IMG/VR virus record: IMGVR_UViG_3300044714_000110 | Coordinates: 1-29,538 of that record | DNA: 29,538 nt | Origin: a virus | Reading direction: 5' to 3' (one strand) | Part shown: positions 1,782 to 29,538 of the stretch, one piece after another | Layout of the letters: the number at the start of each line of letters is the position of its first letter | How positions within the stretch are numbered: position 1 is the first letter of the stretch | Notes under the pieces: model-generated | The model's database searches: none | What the model was told of the DNA's origin: nothing | What the model saw: the letters and a program-made list of their open reading frames with translations, nothing else | Position numbers and translations under genes: made by a program

Positions 1782-2288
1782 TCATTTCGGAGCGGTCACG
1801 ATGTAACCTCTGCCGTCCGGCTTGAACACACTCCAGAAATCCTCGCCTCTTGCAATCCGTGCATACTCTGGAGAACCTTTGTAGTTTTCAAGATCATAAT
1901 CGTATAACTTCCGAAGCCAGTCGCGTCCCCATCCACGCGGTACAGGCCAGTGCTTGGTTCGCGCAGCCTGCTTCCACTCTTTCCGAGTGAGTCCGCGATA
2001 ACACGGTTCATTCTCTTCCGCATAACTTGTCGGTTTCGAAATGTTGGGATTCAGAGTTCCAAACCACTCCACAGACTTGCTGTAGACAGCGGCCAATCGT
2101 TCAAGTCGCACGAAGTCGATGCGCCCATGACCTTCGACCTTTGAGAAATACGATTGCGACCATCCCATGATGTATGCCACTTCAGGCTGCGTGTAACCCG
2201 CTTCTAGTCGCGCCTGTTTCAGCTTCTCCCGAAGCAGTTTCCTCCCTTTGGAATCCTGCGTTCTAACCTGCTGAACGATGGTTGCCAT
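1782..2288 (-). CDS. XRE-family helix-turn-helix regulator (repressor candidate)
   Basis: The only confidently leftward gene in the window. Residues about 22-73 of the 168-residue protein form a Cro/C1-type helix-turn-helix: KLKQARLEAGYTQPEVAYIM, then GWSQSYFSKVEGHGRID and LERLAAVYSKSVEWF, the usual family pattern. After it comes an unusual Trp- and Tyr-rich C-terminal part (CYRGLTRKEWKQAARTKHW and a YDYDLENYKGSPEYARI stretch) that I do not recognise; it has no LexA/CI-type peptidase signature. The ATG at 2288 is chosen over an in-frame TTG at 2351 because an inverted repeat and an extended -10-like TGCTATATT overlap the region between them, so the message may be nearly leaderless. It faces away from the replication block, the classic place for a phage repressor or early-gene regulator. 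Confidence 0.85.
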   Translation of the reverse strand: MATIVQQVRTQDSKGRKLLREKLKQARLEAGYTQPEVAYIMGWSQSYFSKVEGHGRIDFVRLERLAAVYSKSVEWFGTLNPNISKPTSYAEENEPCYRGLTRKEWKQAARTKHWPVPRGWGRDWLRKLYDYDLENYKGSPEYARIARGEDFWSVFKPDGRGYIVTAPK

Positions 2289-2305
2289 ATTCCGAAATGG
2301 AATAT
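2287..2305. promoter_or_regulatory. Candidate operator 1: ATATTCC-n5-GGAATAT
   Basis: A perfect 7-bp inverted repeat with a 5-bp spacer touches the start codon of the leftward regulator and overlaps its likely -10 sequence (TATATT on the minus strand). A dimeric XRE protein bound here would block its own promoter. The repeat is seen directly; its use as an operator is inferred. Confidence 0.55.
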
Positions 2306-2306
2306 A

Positions 2307-2327
2307 GCACTTTCCTGCATAAAGTGC
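2307..2327. promoter_or_regulatory. Candidate operator 2: GCACTTT-n7-AAAGTGC
   Basis: A second perfect 7-bp inverted repeat, with a 7-bp spacer, begins one base after operator 1 but has a different sequence. It lies in the divergent control region between the regulator and the rightward gene at 2410. Two adjacent dyads of different sequence could bind two different proteins or give ordered binding. Confidence 0.5.
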
Positions 2328-2409
2328 ATCGCTAAGTACCTGATTCAACAATAGAAATAGAGCACTGCAAACTTACCGGTTCTTCAGAATTTCTCTGGAT
2401 AAGTCTCCC

Positions 2410-3144
2410 ATGAGCGAAAATATCCAGCTAAGCCCTGCGCCCGAAGCCTCTGTCCTGACGGTTGTTCCCGCCAAGACCGAAGCTCGGGTGTTCGAAGCTG
2501 AGGCCACCAAATTGGCAGATTCTGCCATTTTGACAAACGCCGAAGCTACCACCGCAGTACGAACCGAAGATGATTTGTGCGCCGAGATCACACGGCTGTG
2601 GACCGCAAACAAAGTGAATCGCTACGAACTGGGCGAGAAGCTTTGTCAGCTTAAGCAGCAAGCCAAACACGGGGAATGGATGAAGAGAGTGGAGGCCACC
2701 ATTGGAATTCCCCAGCGTACGGTTAACAGCCTGATGAGCTACTACCGCGAGGAATTTCAGCAGCGGACGGCGAAGTCAGTGCTTGACGTCGCATTTGACG
2801 CTGAATTGGCAGACCCTGCCAATTCTGACCAAGAGGACGAACCGCAAGGCGAGCGGAACAAAGCCCCATACTTTCGTCCGAAGATTTCGCTGAAGTGGGA
2901 GGAACAGACGGCGTGGAAAAGTGCCATCGAGGTGATCATCGCCCAAGTGGACCACGTCAACAATCCCACCGAGGCAGTTTTTTACGCGGTGACCATGGCA
3001 GCGGAACGCTTCGCGGCTGTGGAGCCGACGGAACCTGCCGTCGAGGCAGTCACCGTCGATCCTCCTGCTGTGCCAGTGCCCCTTCTGCTCGCGGGAGCGC
3101 CTGAATACGCTCGACCGTATGACGAGTTTGAGGAGGTACAGTGA
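2410..3144 (+). CDS. DUF3102-like phage protein
   Basis: First gene of the rightward early operon, 244 residues. Residues about 55-115 carry the recognisable core: a helix with ELGEKLCQLKQQAKHGEW followed by MKRVEATIGIPQRTVNSLM and a YYRE end. This resembles DUF3102-type phage and plasmid proteins, in which an HGEW segment precedes a helix-turn-helix-like part. Flanks are low in complexity: an Ala/Glu-rich N-terminus and a Pro/Val/Glu-rich C-terminus (residues about 205-244). The stop overlaps the start of the next gene (TGATG), so the two are probably translationally coupled. No strong Shine-Dalgarno is seen before ATG 2410. A DNA-binding role in replication or regulation is plausible for the family but not proven. 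Confidence 0.8.
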   Translation: MSENIQLSPAPEASVLTVVPAKTEARVFEAEATKLADSAILTNAEATTAVRTEDDLCAEITRLWTANKVNRYELGEKLCQLKQQAKHGEWMKRVEATIGIPQRTVNSLMSYYREEFQQRTAKSVLDVAFDAELADPANSDQEDEPQGERNKAPYFRPKISLKWEEQTAWKSAIEVIIAQVDHVNNPTEAVFYAVTMAAERFAAVEPTEPAVEAVTVDPPAVPVPLLLAGAPEYARPYDEFEEVQ

Positions 3145-4061
3145 TGAAACTGCCCATCGTCACTCTTTCTCACCAAGAGCCAGAGCAGGAAATTGCTGCT
3201 CTGGAGGGGCAGTCGATTGGGGCGGGTCATTACGACCGCCTCATCGATCCGTCCACCATCTATCTCAAACCCAACGGAGAATTTCTCTGTCTCTGGCTCA
3301 AGAATGTGATTCCGCTGAATTTGCAGCGAGAAGCCTATCACGTACTTAAGCACAAAGAGATTGCCCCTCCCGGCAGTGCTAAGCGACGTGGTAAAGCGTC
3401 AGGGAACGGGGCAGATCGCAAAGCCGGGAGCAGCATCCTTGGTGCTTACGACAGAGATGGCCGCCATCATCCTTGTGCGGCAAAGGCTGCCTTCAACGCT
3501 AAACACCCGCATCTGTTTCGGCGATTTCTGCCGTACGCAATGAAGGTCAATCAACTGTATGAGAAGAACCTCCTGGCCATATACAACTCGCAATATTTGG
3601 TCGCTCTCGCAACGTGGCCAGAGTGGCTCGTTGGGAGCAGCGTCTTCACGACCATTCAAGTTAACAAGGGTTTCCGTACGCAGGTTCACAAGGACGGGAA
3701 CAACTTGCACAGCAGCGTCGCCCCGATGACTTGTTTCACTAATGCCGTTGGTGGAGAACTCATTTTTCCAAAGTACGGCGTCGCCGTTCCGTATGGCAAC
3801 GGAGACATGTTGTTCGCCAACGTTCACGAGTGGCACGGCAATGCACCGTTTGTCCGCGTTCTCAATACTACGTTCCGTACCACGTGTGTGTTCTATTACC
3901 GAGCACGAATGGTGCAGTGCGGAACGATGGCTGAGGAGATCGAGCGCATGCGGAATCGAGACCTCGGAGATCCGTTGTACGGCTGGATCAACGACGGAAA
4001 GTTCTTCTCACCGGAGGAACAAAGAAAGCTGACAGTTCCAGAAGAGGATGAACTGCTGTGA
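3144..4061 (+). CDS. 2OG-Fe(II) dioxygenase, TET/JBP-like (candidate DNA base hydroxylase)
   Basis: A 305-residue protein with the signature of the 2-oxoglutarate- and iron-dependent oxygenase fold. Counting from a possible GTG at 3141, the metal ligands are the HxD of HKDGNN (His183, Asp185) and His232 of EWHGN, with Arg246 a candidate 2OG-binding Arg. Between them is GGELIFPKYGVAVPYGNGD, which closely follows the pattern I know from trypanosome JBP and related TET/JBP enzymes (GGEL, PxxG, GD, HGN, then R and a YYRARM strand). Such enzymes oxidise the methyl group of thymine or 5-methylcytosine in DNA; phage members take part in DNA hypermodification. AGGAGG at 3131-3136 lies 7 bases from ATG 3144, so that start is preferred. 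No DNA methyltransferase or glycosyltransferase is in the window, so thymine, host-made 5mC, or a non-DNA substrate all remain possible. Confidence 0.8.
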   Translation: MKLPIVTLSHQEPEQEIAALEGQSIGAGHYDRLIDPSTIYLKPNGEFLCLWLKNVIPLNLQREAYHVLKHKEIAPPGSAKRRGKASGNGADRKAGSSILGAYDRDGRHHPCAAKAAFNAKHPHLFRRFLPYAMKVNQLYEKNLLAIYNSQYLVALATWPEWLVGSSVFTTIQVNKGFRTQVHKDGNNLHSSVAPMTCFTNAVGGELIFPKYGVAVPYGNGDMLFANVHEWHGNAPFVRVLNTTFRTTCVFYYRARMVQCGTMAEEIERMRNRDLGDPLYGWINDGKFFSPEEQRKLTVPEEDELL

Positions 4062-23031: not shown

Positions 23032-23751
23032 ATGCCAGTTCCGTCAACCATCTCGGGCACGCCGATCCTCGGGTTCTCTGATCCGAAGACCTTCTTCGTG
23101 GGTTATACGGGCAGTGGAACATATCCTCTGCGCGGCCTCGGCTGGTCAATGGTTGATGAACCAACTTTCGTGACGCTGGACCAGAAGACGCAAGGTGGAC
23201 GCGAGGTCATGAATGTCATGTACCTCAACCCACTACACGCTTTTAAGCTCGTCTACAACTTCTTGGAGAACGACCCCGCGCTGAACATCAGCGGAAACCC
23301 TGACACCGATTTCAGAATGCTCTACAGTTTTTACCTCGCGCAGAATGGACGCTTTCAAGAATTGCTGTACCAGACGCGAGAAGCCTCGGTGGTCAAGCAA
23401 GCACTCGCGGCTCCCGACGCCAACGGCTACGTCGAGATCGTTTATTCGAATGGCCCATTCTTCAGCGAGTCAGTGCAGGAAATGAATAACGTCCTGCCGA
23501 CTATCTATTCGGTGAACGATGGCGTGTACACCGACCGGACCGTTGACTGCTCGTTCTACACGGCTGGCTCTATCGCTCCATACTCCGGCATCGCGTTCAC
23601 GAGCACGTACACGCTGGGGGCTGGAGAGTTCTTCGCGTGGAGCGGCACGTGGTACTACCGCTGCCACTTCGATAAGGACAGCTATTCGTTCGAAGAATTC
23701 ATGTATCAGCTCATGAAGGTCGGAGTGGGGCTGTCGCAAGTTCGTATTTAA
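23032..23751 (+). CDS. Distal tail protein, DUF2460-like
   Basis: A 239-residue protein directly after the tape measure. It is beta-rich, and its end (FFAWSGTWYYRCHFDKDSYSFEEFM, about residues 201-225) recalls DUF2460-type distal tail proteins, as in gene transfer agents and many siphophages. The distal tail protein forms a ring between tube and hub. The assignment uses sequence pattern and order (tape measure, this, hub, NlpC/P60, tip). Confidence 0.75.
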   Translation: MPVPSTISGTPILGFSDPKTFFVGYTGSGTYPLRGLGWSMVDEPTFVTLDQKTQGGREVMNVMYLNPLHAFKLVYNFLENDPALNISGNPDTDFRMLYSFYLAQNGRFQELLYQTREASVVKQALAAPDANGYVEIVYSNGPFFSESVQEMNNVLPTIYSVNDGVYTDRTVDCSFYTAGSIAPYSGIAFTSTYTLGAGEFFAWSGTWYYRCHFDKDSYSFEEFMYQLMKVGVGLSQVRI

Positions 23752-23755
23752 TCTC

Positions 23756-25048
23756 ATGAAACAAGTCATCAACACGGCGGGAGTTGATCGCACTGCCATG
23801 TGCTTCCAATGGCTAACAGGCCAAGGAGTGGCCGCGTGGTCCTCCACCACGGACTACGTCAAGGGCGACATGGCGCAGACCTCGGACAACAAGCTGTGGC
23901 GTTGCATCGTGGCGAACACGAACGAGGAGCCGGGAACGGCTGGCAGTCCTCCAGGGACCTACTGGCTCCCGGTTGACCAGCATGGCGAGCGAAACGTCGT
24001 GATGAAAGATTTCTACTTTCTGGGCCCACCAGTTTTCTACCCAAGCTTGGATCAGGGCACTCCAGCTTTGGATTCCAACTACGGTGCTTACCCTTTGGTG
24101 GATGGCGATTTTCCCATTGCGTATCAACCGTACCCTGAGATTCCAAACCAGGACTATGTGCCCGTCATTACGTTCGTTCCGTTCAGCGTCGAAAAGGACA
24201 AGCTGGAATACAAGACTGGCTTCGAAGCATCGACCATGACGCTGACCTTGCGACCGCGTGATCCAAATCCCGCGACTGCTCCAGCGAGCAACGTTGAACC
24301 GTATCTCAGTCGTGGCCCTGCTGGGACGGTTGGCAGCTACGAGACGCCGTCGTTCGCGGAAAGTATTCAGACGAAGGCTCCTTACTCGGACAGCTACTCG
24401 CACGTAGCGACGAAGCTTTATCAGACGATGCGGCAGTCCTTTGCGCAGAGTCAGGAGTGGTATCTCGCTCCGCTCACGGTGTGGCGAACGTTCAGTCCCG
24501 CTGAGGACCCATCGGATGTCACGAGCTACGGAGCGGCAGTTATGTTCCGTGGACGCGTGTCGAACATCAACGTGGACGCCGAGGACGTCAAGATCCAAGT
24601 TGCCTCGCTGATGGAGATTTTCAAGCAGAAGGTTCCTTCGCAGACCATTCAGCCAGGGAACCGCTGGGCACCGTTCAACTTTCAAGGCACTGAGGACTAC
24701 TTTGTCAGCATCACGAACAGTCCCATCGCCAGTTTCAGCTACTGTCAGTTCGAGTTCCCAGGAGAAGTGGCAGATGGCGATCTCGCCGAAGGGTTCGCAC
24801 TCGTGGCCGCGTTCAATGGCGTAAATCTCGCGGGCTGCTGGTGGAGACATATTTACACCAACATTGGAACGTTCCAGTCTGGTGGAAACTACTACTCCAC
24901 GGTCGTGTTCCTCGAACCTCTGCCGCTAATGCTCAACTCAGGCATCGTGGAAGCGCGGCTCTGGAAGTCGAGCGACACGAGCACGAATCCAAGTGGACCG
25001 GGAAGCGGCTTCCCGTATGTTCCGCAGCCTCTCACGGGTATTGCCTAA
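23756..25048 (+). CDS. Tail hub protein, DUF2163-like, with CBM-like module
   Basis: A 430-residue tail-tip protein. The position after the distal tail protein and before the NlpC/P60 peptidase is that of the DUF2163-type hub protein of gene transfer agents. The middle (TFVPFSVEKDKLEYKTGFEA, then TMTLTLRPRD and YGAAVMFRGRVSNINVD) fits the hub fold. An insert at about 26-72 has the spacing of small carbohydrate-binding CBM5/12-like modules: AAW28, Y34, G37-D38, W48, P59 and W70. It may touch cell-surface sugars. The C-terminus is Ser/Gly/Pro-rich. The family call is by pattern and order. Confidence 0.75.
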   Translation: MKQVINTAGVDRTAMCFQWLTGQGVAAWSSTTDYVKGDMAQTSDNKLWRCIVANTNEEPGTAGSPPGTYWLPVDQHGERNVVMKDFYFLGPPVFYPSLDQGTPALDSNYGAYPLVDGDFPIAYQPYPEIPNQDYVPVITFVPFSVEKDKLEYKTGFEASTMTLTLRPRDPNPATAPASNVEPYLSRGPAGTVGSYETPSFAESIQTKAPYSDSYSHVATKLYQTMRQSFAQSQEWYLAPLTVWRTFSPAEDPSDVTSYGAAVMFRGRVSNINVDAEDVKIQVASLMEIFKQKVPSQTIQPGNRWAPFNFQGTEDYFVSITNSPIASFSYCQFEFPGEVADGDLAEGFALVAAFNGVNLAGCWWRHIYTNIGTFQSGGNYYSTVVFLEPLPLMLNSGIVEARLWKSSDTSTNPSGPGSGFPYVPQPLTGIA

Positions 25049-25504
25049 ATGACGCAAGCGCTGAGGCATGAGCAACTCGAACGCAATGAGGTTATTGCTG
25101 AAGCCCATCGGTGGGTAGGAACGCCTTTCAAGCACGACGCTGAAGTGCTCGGTGTAGGAGTGGATTGCGCCCATCTGATAAACGCCGTGTACACGGCAGC
25201 GAAGAGGATGACGCACATCAAATTTCCACATTACGCGCCTGACTGGTGGAAGCACGCGGAGGACCCTGAGCAACACATCATCGAGAACGCGAAGCTTCAC
25301 TTCAAGGAGATCACTGCTGCGCAGGCGAAGCCGGGAGACTGGGTCGTGCTGTTCATCGGTCGTGCCTGGGCTCATTGCGCCATCATCGTTGGAAACCATC
25401 AAGTTATCGAAGCATGGCCCACGAGGGCGTTGGTCTCGCTGGTCAACAGTCGCGAGGAACGGCTGTACCGCACGCATCAGAAAAGGTATTTCACATGTTG
25501 GTAG
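25049..25504 (+). CDS. NlpC/P60 cell-wall peptidase (tail-associated)
   Basis: A 151-residue NlpC/P60 peptidase. The catalytic Cys is Cys40 in GVGVDCAHLI, the His is His109 in AWAHCAIIV, and a polar third residue follows near HQVIEAW (117-123). A start motif RWVGTPFKHD (21-30) is typical. Such proteins in the tail tip cut peptidoglycan peptides at infection to let DNA pass. ATG 25049 follows the TAA of the hub gene directly. No signal peptide is seen, as expected for a virion protein. Confidence 0.92.
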   Translation: MTQALRHEQLERNEVIAEAHRWVGTPFKHDAEVLGVGVDCAHLINAVYTAAKRMTHIKFPHYAPDWWKHAEDPEQHIIENAKLHFKEITAAQAKPGDWVVLFIGRAWAHCAIIVGNHQVIEAWPTRALVSLVNSREERLYRTHQKRYFTCW

Positions 25505-25650
25505 AAACCGAAAAAGTCTACAAAGTTCTTTTCACCTTCACGGTGAAAGCCAACTCGCAGGAGCAGGCTAACAGCTTCATTCTCGAACGCATGAAGAAGT
25601 TGGCAGAAGCAAACGGCTGGGAAGTTCCGCAGGCGCTGGAGAAATTGTAA
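25495..25650 (+). CDS. Small hypothetical protein, 51 aa, before tip protein
   Basis: Starts at ATG 25495, with AAAAGG about eight bases upstream, overlapping the peptidase gene by 10 bases; its stop overlaps the start of the tip gene (TAATG). It has a beta-like part (KVYKVLFTFTVKANS) then a helix (QEQANSFILERMKKLAEANG). Tight overlap at both ends and a good ribosome-binding site support a real gene. No family recognised; a helper of tail-tip assembly is possible from position. Confidence 0.65.
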   Translation: MLVETEKVYKVLFTFTVKANSQEQANSFILERMKKLAEANGWEVPQALEKL

Positions 25651-28600
25651 TGGCTGGTGGATTAGTAGGCGCAAAGACGAACGCGACGCAGGAGCCGCAA
25701 ATCTTGGGTGTCCAAGTCACCACGTCGCTCTACAACCAAGCCATTCCTCTGCTTATTGGCAAGCGCCGCGCCGCAGGCCACGTCATCTGGTACGGTGACT
25801 TCGGTCCCTCTGGCGGCTCGGGCAAAAAGGGCAAGTCAGGGAAGAAAGGTGGGCCAACCAGCTACCAAGCGAACCTCGACCTGCTCATCGCGTTCGGTCC
25901 CATCTGGTCCATTCAGTCCATCTGGCAGAACAGCAGCATCGTGGGCTACGGTTCCGGTCTGTCCTCGTTCTCGCAGGCTGGAAGCCAGACCTTCACCATC
26001 ACGGCTGCGAGCACCTTCAGCGGCACAGTCAACAATCAGCCAGGAGGCTACAACCTCGACTTCATTTCAGCGATCAGCTTCACTCCGAGCACACCAGTCT
26101 CGGCAACCATCGATGACTACGGCGATCCGCTCGGCTCGCGCACCATCACCGAGACGGAGACGGAGCAGTGGCTCTACAACACGTACGAGAATTTCTCCAG
26201 CTCAGGTCTCGGCAGCATCGCGTGGCGTCCCGGCTCCTGGGAGTTCGGCAAGCCATACTGCAACGCACCAAGTTGCAGTTTCCCCATCGGTGTCGATCAC
26301 GGTGGCGCGGACTTCACCTGCACGTTCCCTGAAGCCGTCACTGGAACGATCACTGTCCATTGGGGAGCCACTAAGGCCGACCACGACAATCCGCTCACGT
26401 ACATCCACTACGAGTTTGAAGCAGAGCTCGGCTCCGGCAACGAGTTCAGTTCAACCCCGAGCCAGCAGATCATCTACCCGGAACTATCGGGTGTTGGTGG
26501 CGTGGCCATCGATCTCGGCATTTCAGGTACGGCTCCTGAACTCGACGTCGAGGCGCAAGGCCTTTACTCGCTGGACAAGAACGGTCAGGTCAATCCTGCC
26601 GATCTGATCCTCGACCTGATTCTGTCGGGCAACGCTTATCACAACAACCTGAACGGCACGTGGACACCGTTTTGTTTCAGTCACGGTTTGAACTTCGGTG
26701 GTGACCCGAGCCGCGAAACATTCCAAGGATTCGATCCCGGATTCCCCGGCTCGCTCACGTGGCCGCCAGTGTGCAGCTTTCCTTGGGTTCTGCCAATGCC
26801 TGCTTCAGGAGCGTCCTCTGGCTCGCAGTTTCAAATCTTGCGTGACCCTCCGACTTTCAACCAAGGTCCGTTTAGTGGTTCGAGTGCGCCGTACTCCGCC
26901 AACTCAATTGTGGAGGGCAGCGACAGCAACTTCTATCGCGCATTGACCTATGCCGAGGCGGACCCTGTCAGCGGTGGCACCACGACGTGGGCACAGTTCG
27001 ACGGAGACTTCTCAGATGGTTTGGAGGACGTACGCAATTACTGCGCAGCGAACGGCATCTTCATCTCGACTTACATCAGCTCCCAGAAGGCTTGCTCCGA
27101 CATCCTCAACGAAGTTTGCGAGATTGCTAACTGTGTCCCGGTGTGGAACGGGCAGTCGCTCGACTTCTATCCGCTGAGCGAAGTGAGCCAAGTTGGCGGA
27201 GGAGTCGTATACACCCCACGCACGGCGTCTGGACCCATCGTTGTGCTGGATTCCAACTACTTCGAGATGGAGAAGGACGAGGCACCCGTTACCGTCAAGC
27301 AAGAGAACATGCAGTCGGTGTGCAACATTCTGGACATCAACTACTCTGACGCGGCCTTCGACTCCAACGGCATGTGCGGCTACCAGGCTTACCAGTCGAC
27401 GTCGGTTCGCATCTCCGACGCCGAGCACTGTGGCCTTTACGGGCCGATGAATGGCTCGCCTCGCGGCTACGACGACTACATCTGCGACGCCACAACTGCC
27501 ACCAAAGTGGGCTGGCCCATCATGAAGCGGCAACGCTTCGCTGATACCTACGCCGTGGATTTCAAGTTGCCTCAGACCGTTGGAAGCTTGCTCGATCCGA
27601 TGGACCTCATCACGGTGAACGATCCACTATTCGGTGGCATTCTGACGACGGGAGTTGCCACCACTGGCCCTGCGGGTCAGGACGTGCGCATTAGCGAACT
27701 TTCCGAAGACAAGGACGGCGTCTGGACTTTGTCTTGCGAACGCTTCATGTACGGAATGTCGGCTCCGCAAGCACCATCGACTGCCGGCACTGTATCGAAT
27801 CCGCCACCGAGCGTGAGTGCTCCGGCAGGCGACATCAATACTCCATATTTCTTCGAGCCAACGGCTGCGCTTGCTGTGGCGCTCGGCATGACCTCAGAAG
27901 GTGGGCTGGCCATCGCTGTGTCCGGCTCGGCAACAAACTACGGTGGCTGCGTGGTCAACGTCTCGACAGATGGCGGATCGAGCTACAGTGCAATCGGCAG
28001 GTTGCCTGGAAATTCCACCATGGGCTACACCACCGCCGATTACCCGCTCTCACCGAACCCTGATGCCAGCGACACCCTGTCCGTGGACCTAACCGAGTCG
28101 GAAGGCGAGCTGATGTCGTACACCTCTGGCCAGCAAGCGCAATTGATCCCGATTGCGCTCGTGGACAACGGCGGCACGACAGCCTCGGGCAGCGCAGCAG
28201 GCTACACCACTGAGATTCCATACGAGATCGTCGCTTACGAAACGGTGTCGCTCGTCTCTACCTACAACTACGATTTGTCACCGACCATTCTGCGCGGACA
28301 GTTAGGAACGGTGCCCGCTGACCATCCATACGGTGGCTCGCCAGTCGCGGGCAGCGTGTTCGTGGATCTGAGCAATCCCAATTCAGTTTTCAAAACTTCG
28401 GTCCCGAGCGGCAACATCGTGGGCAACACGCTGTACTTCAAGTTCCAAACTTTCAATCAGTACGGCGCTGCGATCCAGGACATCTCGGACTGCACGGCAT
28501 ACAGCTTTGCTCTCACTGGCGCGACGAACCCGACCTCACCCAACAGTCCCGGTGGCAGCTATACGCTGACTCCGTCGCCGCTTTTGTACCAAGGCAAGTC

Positions 28601-28982
28601 AGGTGGATGGCCAGGAGTTGATGGTTCCTCGACGTCGTGGACAAATCCAGACTACATCTACTGGCCATCGTTCACTGCGAACTTTGCGTCAGGTGCAGTG
28701 GACTACGCAGCCAACGATTCCGGAACTTCGGCCTTCACTGGTAGTGGGCAGACCGTGTTCGTCACGATCTACGGTCCATCACGCTCTGGCTCGGGCACGG
28801 CCCACGTGGATTCGACCAACGCAAACGCCACGACACCGGGCTATGTCTACCTCGGTCAGATCACGAGCAGCGCGGCTGGAAATTCCGGTGGCACTGGTGG
28901 CTCAAGTGGCAGTGGTGGGCCGCAAGACCCCGGCTCCACGGGCACGTGGGATATCACAGTGGATGGAGCACCGATCATCTAA
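25650..28982 (+). CDS. Large tail tip / host-specificity protein (gpJ-like)
   Basis: An 1110-residue tip protein, the largest gene here. The start (EPQILGVQVTTSLYNQAIPL and IWYGDFG) is like the N-terminus of gpJ-like and gene transfer agent tip proteins, with a Gly/Ser/Lys-rich insert at about 53-70. A part at about 412-451 (APYSANSIVEG, FYRAL, TTTWAQF) resembles a small carbohydrate-binding module. From about 455 on a typical tip region follows (YCAANGIFISTYISSQKAC, then VPVWNGQSLDFYP). The C-terminal 150 residues are Gly/Ser/Thr-rich and may be fibre-like. It would be the central tip and receptor-binding protein. Confidence 0.85.
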   Translation: MAGGLVGAKTNATQEPQILGVQVTTSLYNQAIPLLIGKRRAAGHVIWYGDFGPSGGSGKKGKSGKKGGPTSYQANLDLLIAFGPIWSIQSIWQNSSIVGYGSGLSSFSQAGSQTFTITAASTFSGTVNNQPGGYNLDFISAISFTPSTPVSATIDDYGDPLGSRTITETETEQWLYNTYENFSSSGLGSIAWRPGSWEFGKPYCNAPSCSFPIGVDHGGADFTCTFPEAVTGTITVHWGATKADHDNPLTYIHYEFEAELGSGNEFSSTPSQQIIYPELSGVGGVAIDLGISGTAPELDVEAQGLYSLDKNGQVNPADLILDLILSGNAYHNNLNGTWTPFCFSHGLNFGGDPSRETFQGFDPGFPGSLTWPPVCSFPWVLPMPASGASSGSQFQILRDPPTFNQGPFSGSSAPYSANSIVEGSDSNFYRALTYAEADPVSGGTTTWAQFDGDFSDGLEDVRNYCAANGIFISTYISSQKACSDILNEVCEIANCVPVWNGQSLDFYPLSEVSQVGGGVVYTPRTASGPIVVLDSNYFEMEKDEAPVTVKQENMQSVCNILDINYSDAAFDSNGMCGYQAYQSTSVRISDAEHCGLYGPMNGSPRGYDDYICDATTATKVGWPIMKRQRFADTYAVDFKLPQTVGSLLDPMDLITVNDPLFGGILTTGVATTGPAGQDVRISELSEDKDGVWTLSCERFMYGMSAPQAPSTAGTVSNPPPSVSAPAGDINTPYFFEPTAALAVALGMTSEGGLAIAVSGSATNYGGCVVNVSTDGGSSYSAIGRLPGNSTMGYTTADYPLSPNPDASDTLSVDLTESEGELMSYTSGQQAQLIPIALVDNGGTTASGSAAGYTTEIPYEIVAYETVSLVSTYNYDLSPTILRGQLGTVPADHPYGGSPVAGSVFVDLSNPNSVFKTSVPSGNIVGNTLYFKFQTFNQYGAAIQDISDCTAYSFALTGATNPTSPNSPGGSYTLTPSPLLYQGKSGGWPGVDGSSTSWTNPDYIYWPSFTANFASGAVDYAANDSGTSAFTGSGQTVFVTIYGPSRSGSGTAHVDSTNANATTPGYVYLGQITSSAAGNSGGTGGSSGSGGPQDPGSTGTWDITVDGAPII

Positions 28983-29538
28983 TGGCTGGCACTCTAAATT
29001 TTTCGAGCACGACTCCGGCAGCACCCGGCTCTAACGTCAATGTCACGTGGCAGAAGGATGCTGACGGGAACCTGTCCGGCTATGTCCCCCCAAGTGGCGG
29101 AGGAGGAGGTTCAGGTGCACCGAGCGGGACTTTCCACAGCATCGTCGTTAATCCCAGTGGCGTCGGTGGAGCTGGAACTCAGCTCGGCACGTATGCAGTC
29201 ACTGTGGGAAGTGTGGGAGGTCCGTTCTCCAGCTCCGACAATGCGAGTCTCCCATGGTTCAGAGTAGAAGCGTCAGGACCCTCGACGAGCGGTATTACAG
29301 ACGACATCTTTTGCATCACTCCTGCGACCATGCAGCAGATCCAATTCTACGTAGGAATTGGCAGTGGTTCTCTCGGCAGCGGTGTGTTGACTGGATGTCG
29401 CTGGTGGTTAGGATTCTCGGACTTGGGAATCGGTTCACTGGACGCGACCAACCCCGCCGGACACATCGTCGGCTTCCGCTTGGATCAGAGCGGTGGACTC
29501 AACACGCCAGATACGAACTGGCAAGCCTATGTCTCCAG
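28982..29538 (+). CDS. Tail fibre-like protein, truncated by window end
   Basis: Starts at ATG 28982, overlapping the TAA of the tip gene, and stays open for 185 codons to the right edge, so the 3' end is missing. It begins MAGTLNFSSTTPAAPGSNVN, then NVTWQKDADGNLSGYVPPS and a Gly-rich linker (GGGGGSG), and goes on with beta-rich, Gly/Ser-rich sequence. This is the usual look of a fibre or tip-appendage protein after a gpJ-like gene. The receptor-binding part would lie beyond the window. Confidence 0.78.
   Translation, partial: MAGTLNFSSTTPAAPGSNVNVTWQKDADGNLSGYVPPSGGGGGSGAPSGTFHSIVVNPSGVGGAGTQLGTYAVTVGSVGGPFSSSDNASLPWFRVEASGPSTSGITDDIFCITPATMQQIQFYVGIGSGSLGSGVLTGCRWWLGFSDLGIGSLDATNPAGHIVGFRLDQSGGLNTPDTNWQAYVS

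Follow-up and report, generated by a model that had tools for sequence, protein, structure and literature searches.

A Divergent Phage TET/JBP-Type Dioxygenase Gene Downstream of a DUF3102 Gene, with Thymine as the More Likely Substrate

Introduction

Phages that make 5-hydroxymethyluracil (5hmU) before replication use dUMP hydroxymethylase. For oxygenases of the TET/JBP family, Iyer et al. are said to have predicted in 2013 that the products feed complex base modifications in phages, and Burke et al. reportedly described, in PNAS in 2021, a phage TET with activity on cytosine. The gene set of phage Tonitrus has been annotated as a thymine hypermodification system (PMC11955845), and a kinase/ADDT route for 5hmU in DNA was described by Lee et al., as far as that work is quoted in PMC11955845.

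The window studied here covers an entire IMG/VR record (29,538 bases), which is classified as linear. A first-pass annotation had proposed that it carries a TET/JBP-like dioxygenase in an early operon and is a candidate for DNA base hypermodification. The gene was re-examined at the level of family, predicted fold and gene neighbourhood.

Organisation of the Window and Its Putative Early Region

Because it ends inside an ORF at position 29538, the record is a fragment and partner genes may be missing from it. An end repeat was searched for in the record and none was found. The oxygenase ORF is intact. Its start and the stop of the upstream gene overlap by 1 nt in TGATG, and AGGAGG at 3131–3136 lies 7 nt ahead of the ATG; translation could also begin at a GTG at 3141. 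Judged by its sequence, this is a real phage TET/JBP oxygenase gene, a divergent member of a known family, and it is probably functional.

The features of the region are listed in Table 1. Divergently from the repressor-like gene, the DUF3102 and TET genes lie on the forward strand, where the small ORF and then the primase/helicase-like gene come next; genes for terminase, portal and tail proteins lie beyond them. This layout fits the early operon proposed earlier; a consensus scan of the early region gave no sigma-70-like promoter. In a tblastn search, the 864-aa replication protein matched a Bacteroides phage gene annotated as DNA polymerase (E 1e-25).

In agreement with the first-pass annotation, no methyltransferase or glycosyltransferase was found when 30 window proteins were scanned with Pfam and the record was searched for individual families. 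In this record, incomplete at its end, there was no match to PF18724 or PF18751 (5hmU kinase and the amino acid:DNA transferase ADDT/aGPT-PPlase), nor to PF00145 or PF20691 (C5-methyltransferase and TAGT). The earlier term "hypermodification" thus goes beyond the contents of the window, where no tailoring enzyme is present.

Elsewhere in the window, tail genes at 23032–28982 (DUF2460, a weak phiJL001 Gp84-like match, NlpC/P60 and Rcc01698-like) have the order seen in tail cassettes like those of gene transfer agents, and a 297-aa ORF at 350–1243 has no Pfam or PHROG match. CTAG occurs at 0.48 of the Markov expectation (15 vs 31.4).

Table 1. Features of the early region and of the predicted oxygenase. 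Residue numbers count from the ATG at 3144; invariance refers to an alignment of 55 phage relatives.
Feature	Position	Strand	Basis
Divergent HTH repressor-like regulator	1782..2351	−	HTH_31 E 2.9e-7; phage repressor PHROGs
Upstream partner, 244 aa, DUF3102 domain	2410..3144	+	DUF3102 25.0 bits, cutoff 24.4
TET/JBP-type 2OG-Fe(II) dioxygenase (predicted), 305 aa	3144..4061	+	PF12851, phrog_24024, AlphaFold model, best solved folds
HxD iron-binding motif, H182 and D184	3687..3695	+	invariant in 55/55 aligned relatives
N187, equivalent to hTet2 N1387 / NgTet1 D234	3702..3704	+	Asp in 55/55 aligned relatives
Distal iron-binding His, H231	3834..3836	+	invariant in 55/55 aligned relatives
2OG-binding Arg, R245	3876..3878	+	invariant in 55/55 aligned relatives
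Small ORF between TET and replication gene, 61 aa	4206..4391	+	ORF only
Primase/helicase-like replication protein, 864 aa	4388..6982	+	phrog_5311 helicase E 8.9e-7

Family Assignment, Catalytic Residues and Predicted Fold

The Pfam search assigned the protein to Tet_JBP (PF12851, E 4.1e-13) with 49.3 bits, above the curated cutoff of 34.9 bits, and the PHROGs search placed it in phrog_24024 (E 4.6e-39); these scores, like the invariant residues of Table 1, are well outside chance. A tblastn search returned 78 phage records, with Pelagibacter phage HTVC112P and Nonlabens phage P12024L first at 30% identity. All motifs on which the first-pass annotation had based its TET/JBP reading (HKDGNN, GGELIFPKYG, NGDMLFA, EWHGN and a following Arg) are present, and the reading itself holds. 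The ligand residues are also those named before, at shifted numbers: 183, 185, 232 and 246 had been counted from the GTG at 3141 and become 182, 184, 231 and 245 from the ATG.

The AlphaFold model, built from the relatives' alignment, has a mean pLDDT of 88 and a pTM of 0.86. In a fold search against the PDB, every one of the 26 best matches was a DNA oxygenase of the TET family (E 4e-12 to 3e-9; TM-score on the query of 0.52–0.64 for the predicted model). CcTet, NgTet1, human TET2 and CMD1 were the best solved folds, and FTO came next (E 5e-7). A sequence search of solved structures gave chance matches only and no TET match.

Taken by profile, invariant residues and predicted fold, the assignment as a TET/JBP-type DNA oxygenase is well supported, and family and fold make DNA very likely the substrate. 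The first-pass annotation had named prolyl hydroxylases, PhyH and other non-DNA oxygenases as the matches that would speak against it. A prolyl hydroxylase, PhyH or small-molecule 2OG oxygenase, with a substrate other than nucleic acid, would have the double-stranded beta-helix core common to all these enzymes. Such an enzyme is nevertheless extremely improbable here, since Tet_JBP was the sole Pfam family found up to E 10, TET-family folds rank orders of magnitude above FTO and small-molecule enzymes, and nearly the whole protein is homologous to phage TETs.

Phylogenetic Position

In a tree of 66 rows, the window TET stands alone on a long branch that falls between the actinophage TETs and all other rows; because of long branches and a quick search, this placement is unsure. 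Its identity to relatives is about 26–36%. A single-protein scan of viral contigs found no close relatives, and DNA patterns for TTIQVNK and VHKDGNN, run over viral contigs, gave 117 new loci, only two of them with a TET and neither close. The scan of genome contigs for TET relatives yielded two distant MAG loci. A scan of viral contigs for the window replication protein found no relatives; the window terminase was found at 98–100% in two short contigs, without a TET.

Gene Neighbourhoods of Phage TETs

When viral contigs were scanned with an alignment of five sequences, at least 550 of 600 candidate stretches were TET relatives, and 80 were kept. Neighbourhoods were counted at 83 loci, the window included, 62 of which have at least 3 kb downstream. 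ADDT was present in 28 of these 62, accompanied by a P-loop kinase in 27, a glutamine amidotransferase in 19 and a GNAT in 12. An FkbM-type methyltransferase was found in 10 of the 62 and TAGT in 9. Over all 83 loci, ADDT (33) and TAGT (15) never occurred in one locus together. ADDT and the kinase adjoin TET genes in both clades neighbouring the window protein.

At the level of records, ADDT was found in 17 of 42 relatives and a C5-methyltransferase in 4 of the same number of whole records. None of eight complete cultured TET phages (P12024L, HTVC112P, Cr30, DLP_6, Margaery, KayaCho, Altadena, S-CBWM1) encodes a C5-methyltransferase. ADDT contigs have a TET and lack the dUMP hydroxymethylase class: a thymidylate synthase/dUMP hydroxymethylase-type gene was present in 0 of 17 such contigs and, among 44 records, only in Cr30. 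Because many relatives' contigs are fragments, absences weigh less than presences in these counts. They lead to a testable statement, that most phage TETs act in the absence of a C5-methyltransferase of the phage, and that many supply a thymine pathway.

The window might belong to a full hypermodification pathway, with kinase and amino acid transfer or with sugar transfer, whose tailoring genes lie beyond the end of the 29.5-kb record. We consider this less likely than not. An ADDT, Ploopntkinase3 or TAGT gene is found in 11 of 13 cultured TET phages, and the window is cut within the ORF at 29538; however, partner genes lie mostly within a few genes of the TET, both flanks of the window TET are present and hold none, and no partner gene is found in 14 of the 62 loci with 3 kb or more downstream, one of these 14 being the window.

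Several of these neighbourhoods have features of their own. The FkbM-type methyltransferase downstream of TET (L003:8497-9195 and about nine more loci, including that of Pelagibacter phage HTVC112P) might O-methylate a hydroxymethyl base. A recurrent TET operon (L061:2782-5153, L039:2839-3243 and similar) encodes a class II glutamine amidotransferase, a GNAT, ADDT and a P-loop kinase, which suggests amidated or acylated amino-acid derivatives of thymine. TET/JBP genes are widespread in phages but often carry wrong names in phage records: SNF2 DNA repair protein, DnaJ chaperone or queuine tRNA-ribosyltransferase.

The Upstream DUF3102 Protein

A ParB-type gene lies upstream of the TET in 63 of the 83 loci (PF02195 in one representative). 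Directly upstream of the window TET there is no ParB_N gene, and the DUF3102 protein is found there instead. The ParB-like proteins upstream of relatives' TETs have a conserved C-terminal strand-helix-helix-like tail (e.g., L059:1368-1994, L056:2983-3201), and a stand-alone protein of ~72 aa resembling this tail precedes the TET in 11 loci. Among window proteins, the C-terminal segment of the DUF3102 protein was the best match to the tail profile, with a single-sequence E of 0.005 and a non-significant E of 6.8 against all proteins. The segment may correspond to the ParB tail, which we regard as a lead. The predicted model of the DUF3102 protein is poor (pLDDT 52.6, an uninformative single-sequence fold), and a scan of viral contigs for its relatives found none.

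One conceivable arrangement is a minimal two-gene TET system of a temperate-looking phage, in which DUF3102 would replace ParB as the DNA-targeting subunit. It would leave bare, site-selected 5hmU, or oxidised 5mC of host origin, with no tailoring enzyme. We consider this arrangement unlikely.

Proposed Substrate and Role

The following explanation is proposed, at a probability of roughly 0.6. The window gene would encode a phage TET/JBP-family dioxygenase dependent on Fe(II) and 2-oxoglutarate, whose substrate, early in the infection, would be phage DNA that is already double-helical. Its target would be a pyrimidine, thymine most probably, whose 5-methyl group would be hydroxylated to yield 5hmU. 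The modified base, alone or tailored further by enzymes encoded outside the recovered 29.5 kb, would shield the phage DNA from restriction. The DUF3102 protein, translated together with the oxygenase, may direct it to DNA; in relatives a ParB-like protein has this place. We infer both the anti-restriction role and this role of the DUF3102 protein.

Family context makes thymine more likely than methylcytosine, since C5-methyltransferases are rare in relatives' records and ADDT with kinase is common in the neighbouring clades. The first-pass suggestion of a JBP-like action on thymine, needing no methyltransferase, is in keeping with this context. Since neither ADDT nor a kinase nor any other downstream enzyme is present in the window, the argument is drawn from relatives only 26–36% identical.

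Oxidation of 5-methylcytosine to 5hmC or a further oxidised cytosine, as in published C5-MTase/TET/TAGT phage systems, is somewhat doubtful. The nearest solved folds are 5mC oxygenases, and TAGT, whose family of sugar transferases has been described on glucosylated hydroxymethylcytosine in T2/T6, stands next to the TET in 15 of 83 loci. The host, or a missing part of the phage, could supply the methylcytosine, the record being cut inside a gene. In addition, N187 equals N1387 of TET2; hTet2 N1387 and NgTet1 D234 contact N4 of 5mC (PMC11040006). Against methylcytosine stand the 38 of 42 relatives' records, and the eight complete TET phages, that have no C5-methyltransferase.

After HxD, the window TET has NN where all 55 aligned relatives have GD; the second of these residues is the one at the base-contact position, and Asn occupies it also in seven actinophage TETs and in S-CBWM1. 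Of the seven, four (Tonitrus, CaiB, Kozie and MO526) are accompanied by ADDT and Ploopntkinase3 and two by the kinase alone. Because Asn-bearing actinophage TETs stand mostly beside such thymine-pathway genes, Asn alone is no argument for methylcytosine. The natural Asp-to-Asn change in an isolated branch offers a handle on how TET/JBP enzymes discriminate between methylcytosine and thymine.

The same position bears on a reading in which a methyl mark (5mC or 6mA) is taken off by the enzyme, or RNA or free nucleotides are its substrate, so that the phage escapes modification-dependent restriction or alters host transcription. CcTet, which ranks with the best fold matches, has activity on 5mC as well as 6mA (PMC11040006). 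Its 6mA activity, however, needs a Gly at the position equivalent to N187 (PMC11040006), where the window protein has Asn and its relatives Asp, and the neighbours of the family are base-tailoring enzymes. This reading is very unlikely, and hydroxylation of thymine remains the one we prefer.

Comparison with Known Systems

The TET/JBP family is already known in phages, and the window member is, as far as sequence comparison goes, isolated and deep-branching, without the usual partner genes. The TETs of the HTVC112P, P12024L, Cr30 and DLP_6 type (PF12851, phrog_24024) are homologous to it over residues of about 3–280, including the N-terminal region, and have the Fe/2OG residues and the VNKxFRT and WHGN motifs in common with it. 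The window protein differs from them by a best identity of about 30–36%, by the NN after HxD, by DUF3102 rather than ParB upstream and by the absence of a tailoring enzyme from the record.

The actinophage Tet-like J-binding proteins (Margaery, KayaCho, Altadena, Tonitrus, CaiB) resemble it in the HxDGNN-type motif, the Asn at the base contact and the order of the GG and HG motifs. Identity to them is only 24.6–33.6% over 35–85% of the window protein, and, unlike the window, these phages encode ParB together with ADDT and/or kinase or TAGT. Two described systems differ by genes absent from the incomplete window record: the TET variant of the phage thymidine hypermodification system by the 5hmU kinase and ADDT/aGPT-PPlase, and the phage C5-cytosine hypermodification system (C5-MTase, TET, TAGT) by the C5-MTase and TAGT.

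Eukaryotic TETs (human TET2, NgTet1, CcTet) and CMD1 share the predicted fold of the window protein, with the iron triad, the 2OG Arg and the base-contact position in common, although identity on the fold alignment is 8–15% and the window protein is compact at 305 aa. Compared with the kinetoplastid thymidine hydroxylases JBP1 and JBP2, the window protein has no J-binding or SNF2 domain (Pfam Tet_JBP only), but the Pfam domain is common to both and the reaction on thymine is possibly the same.
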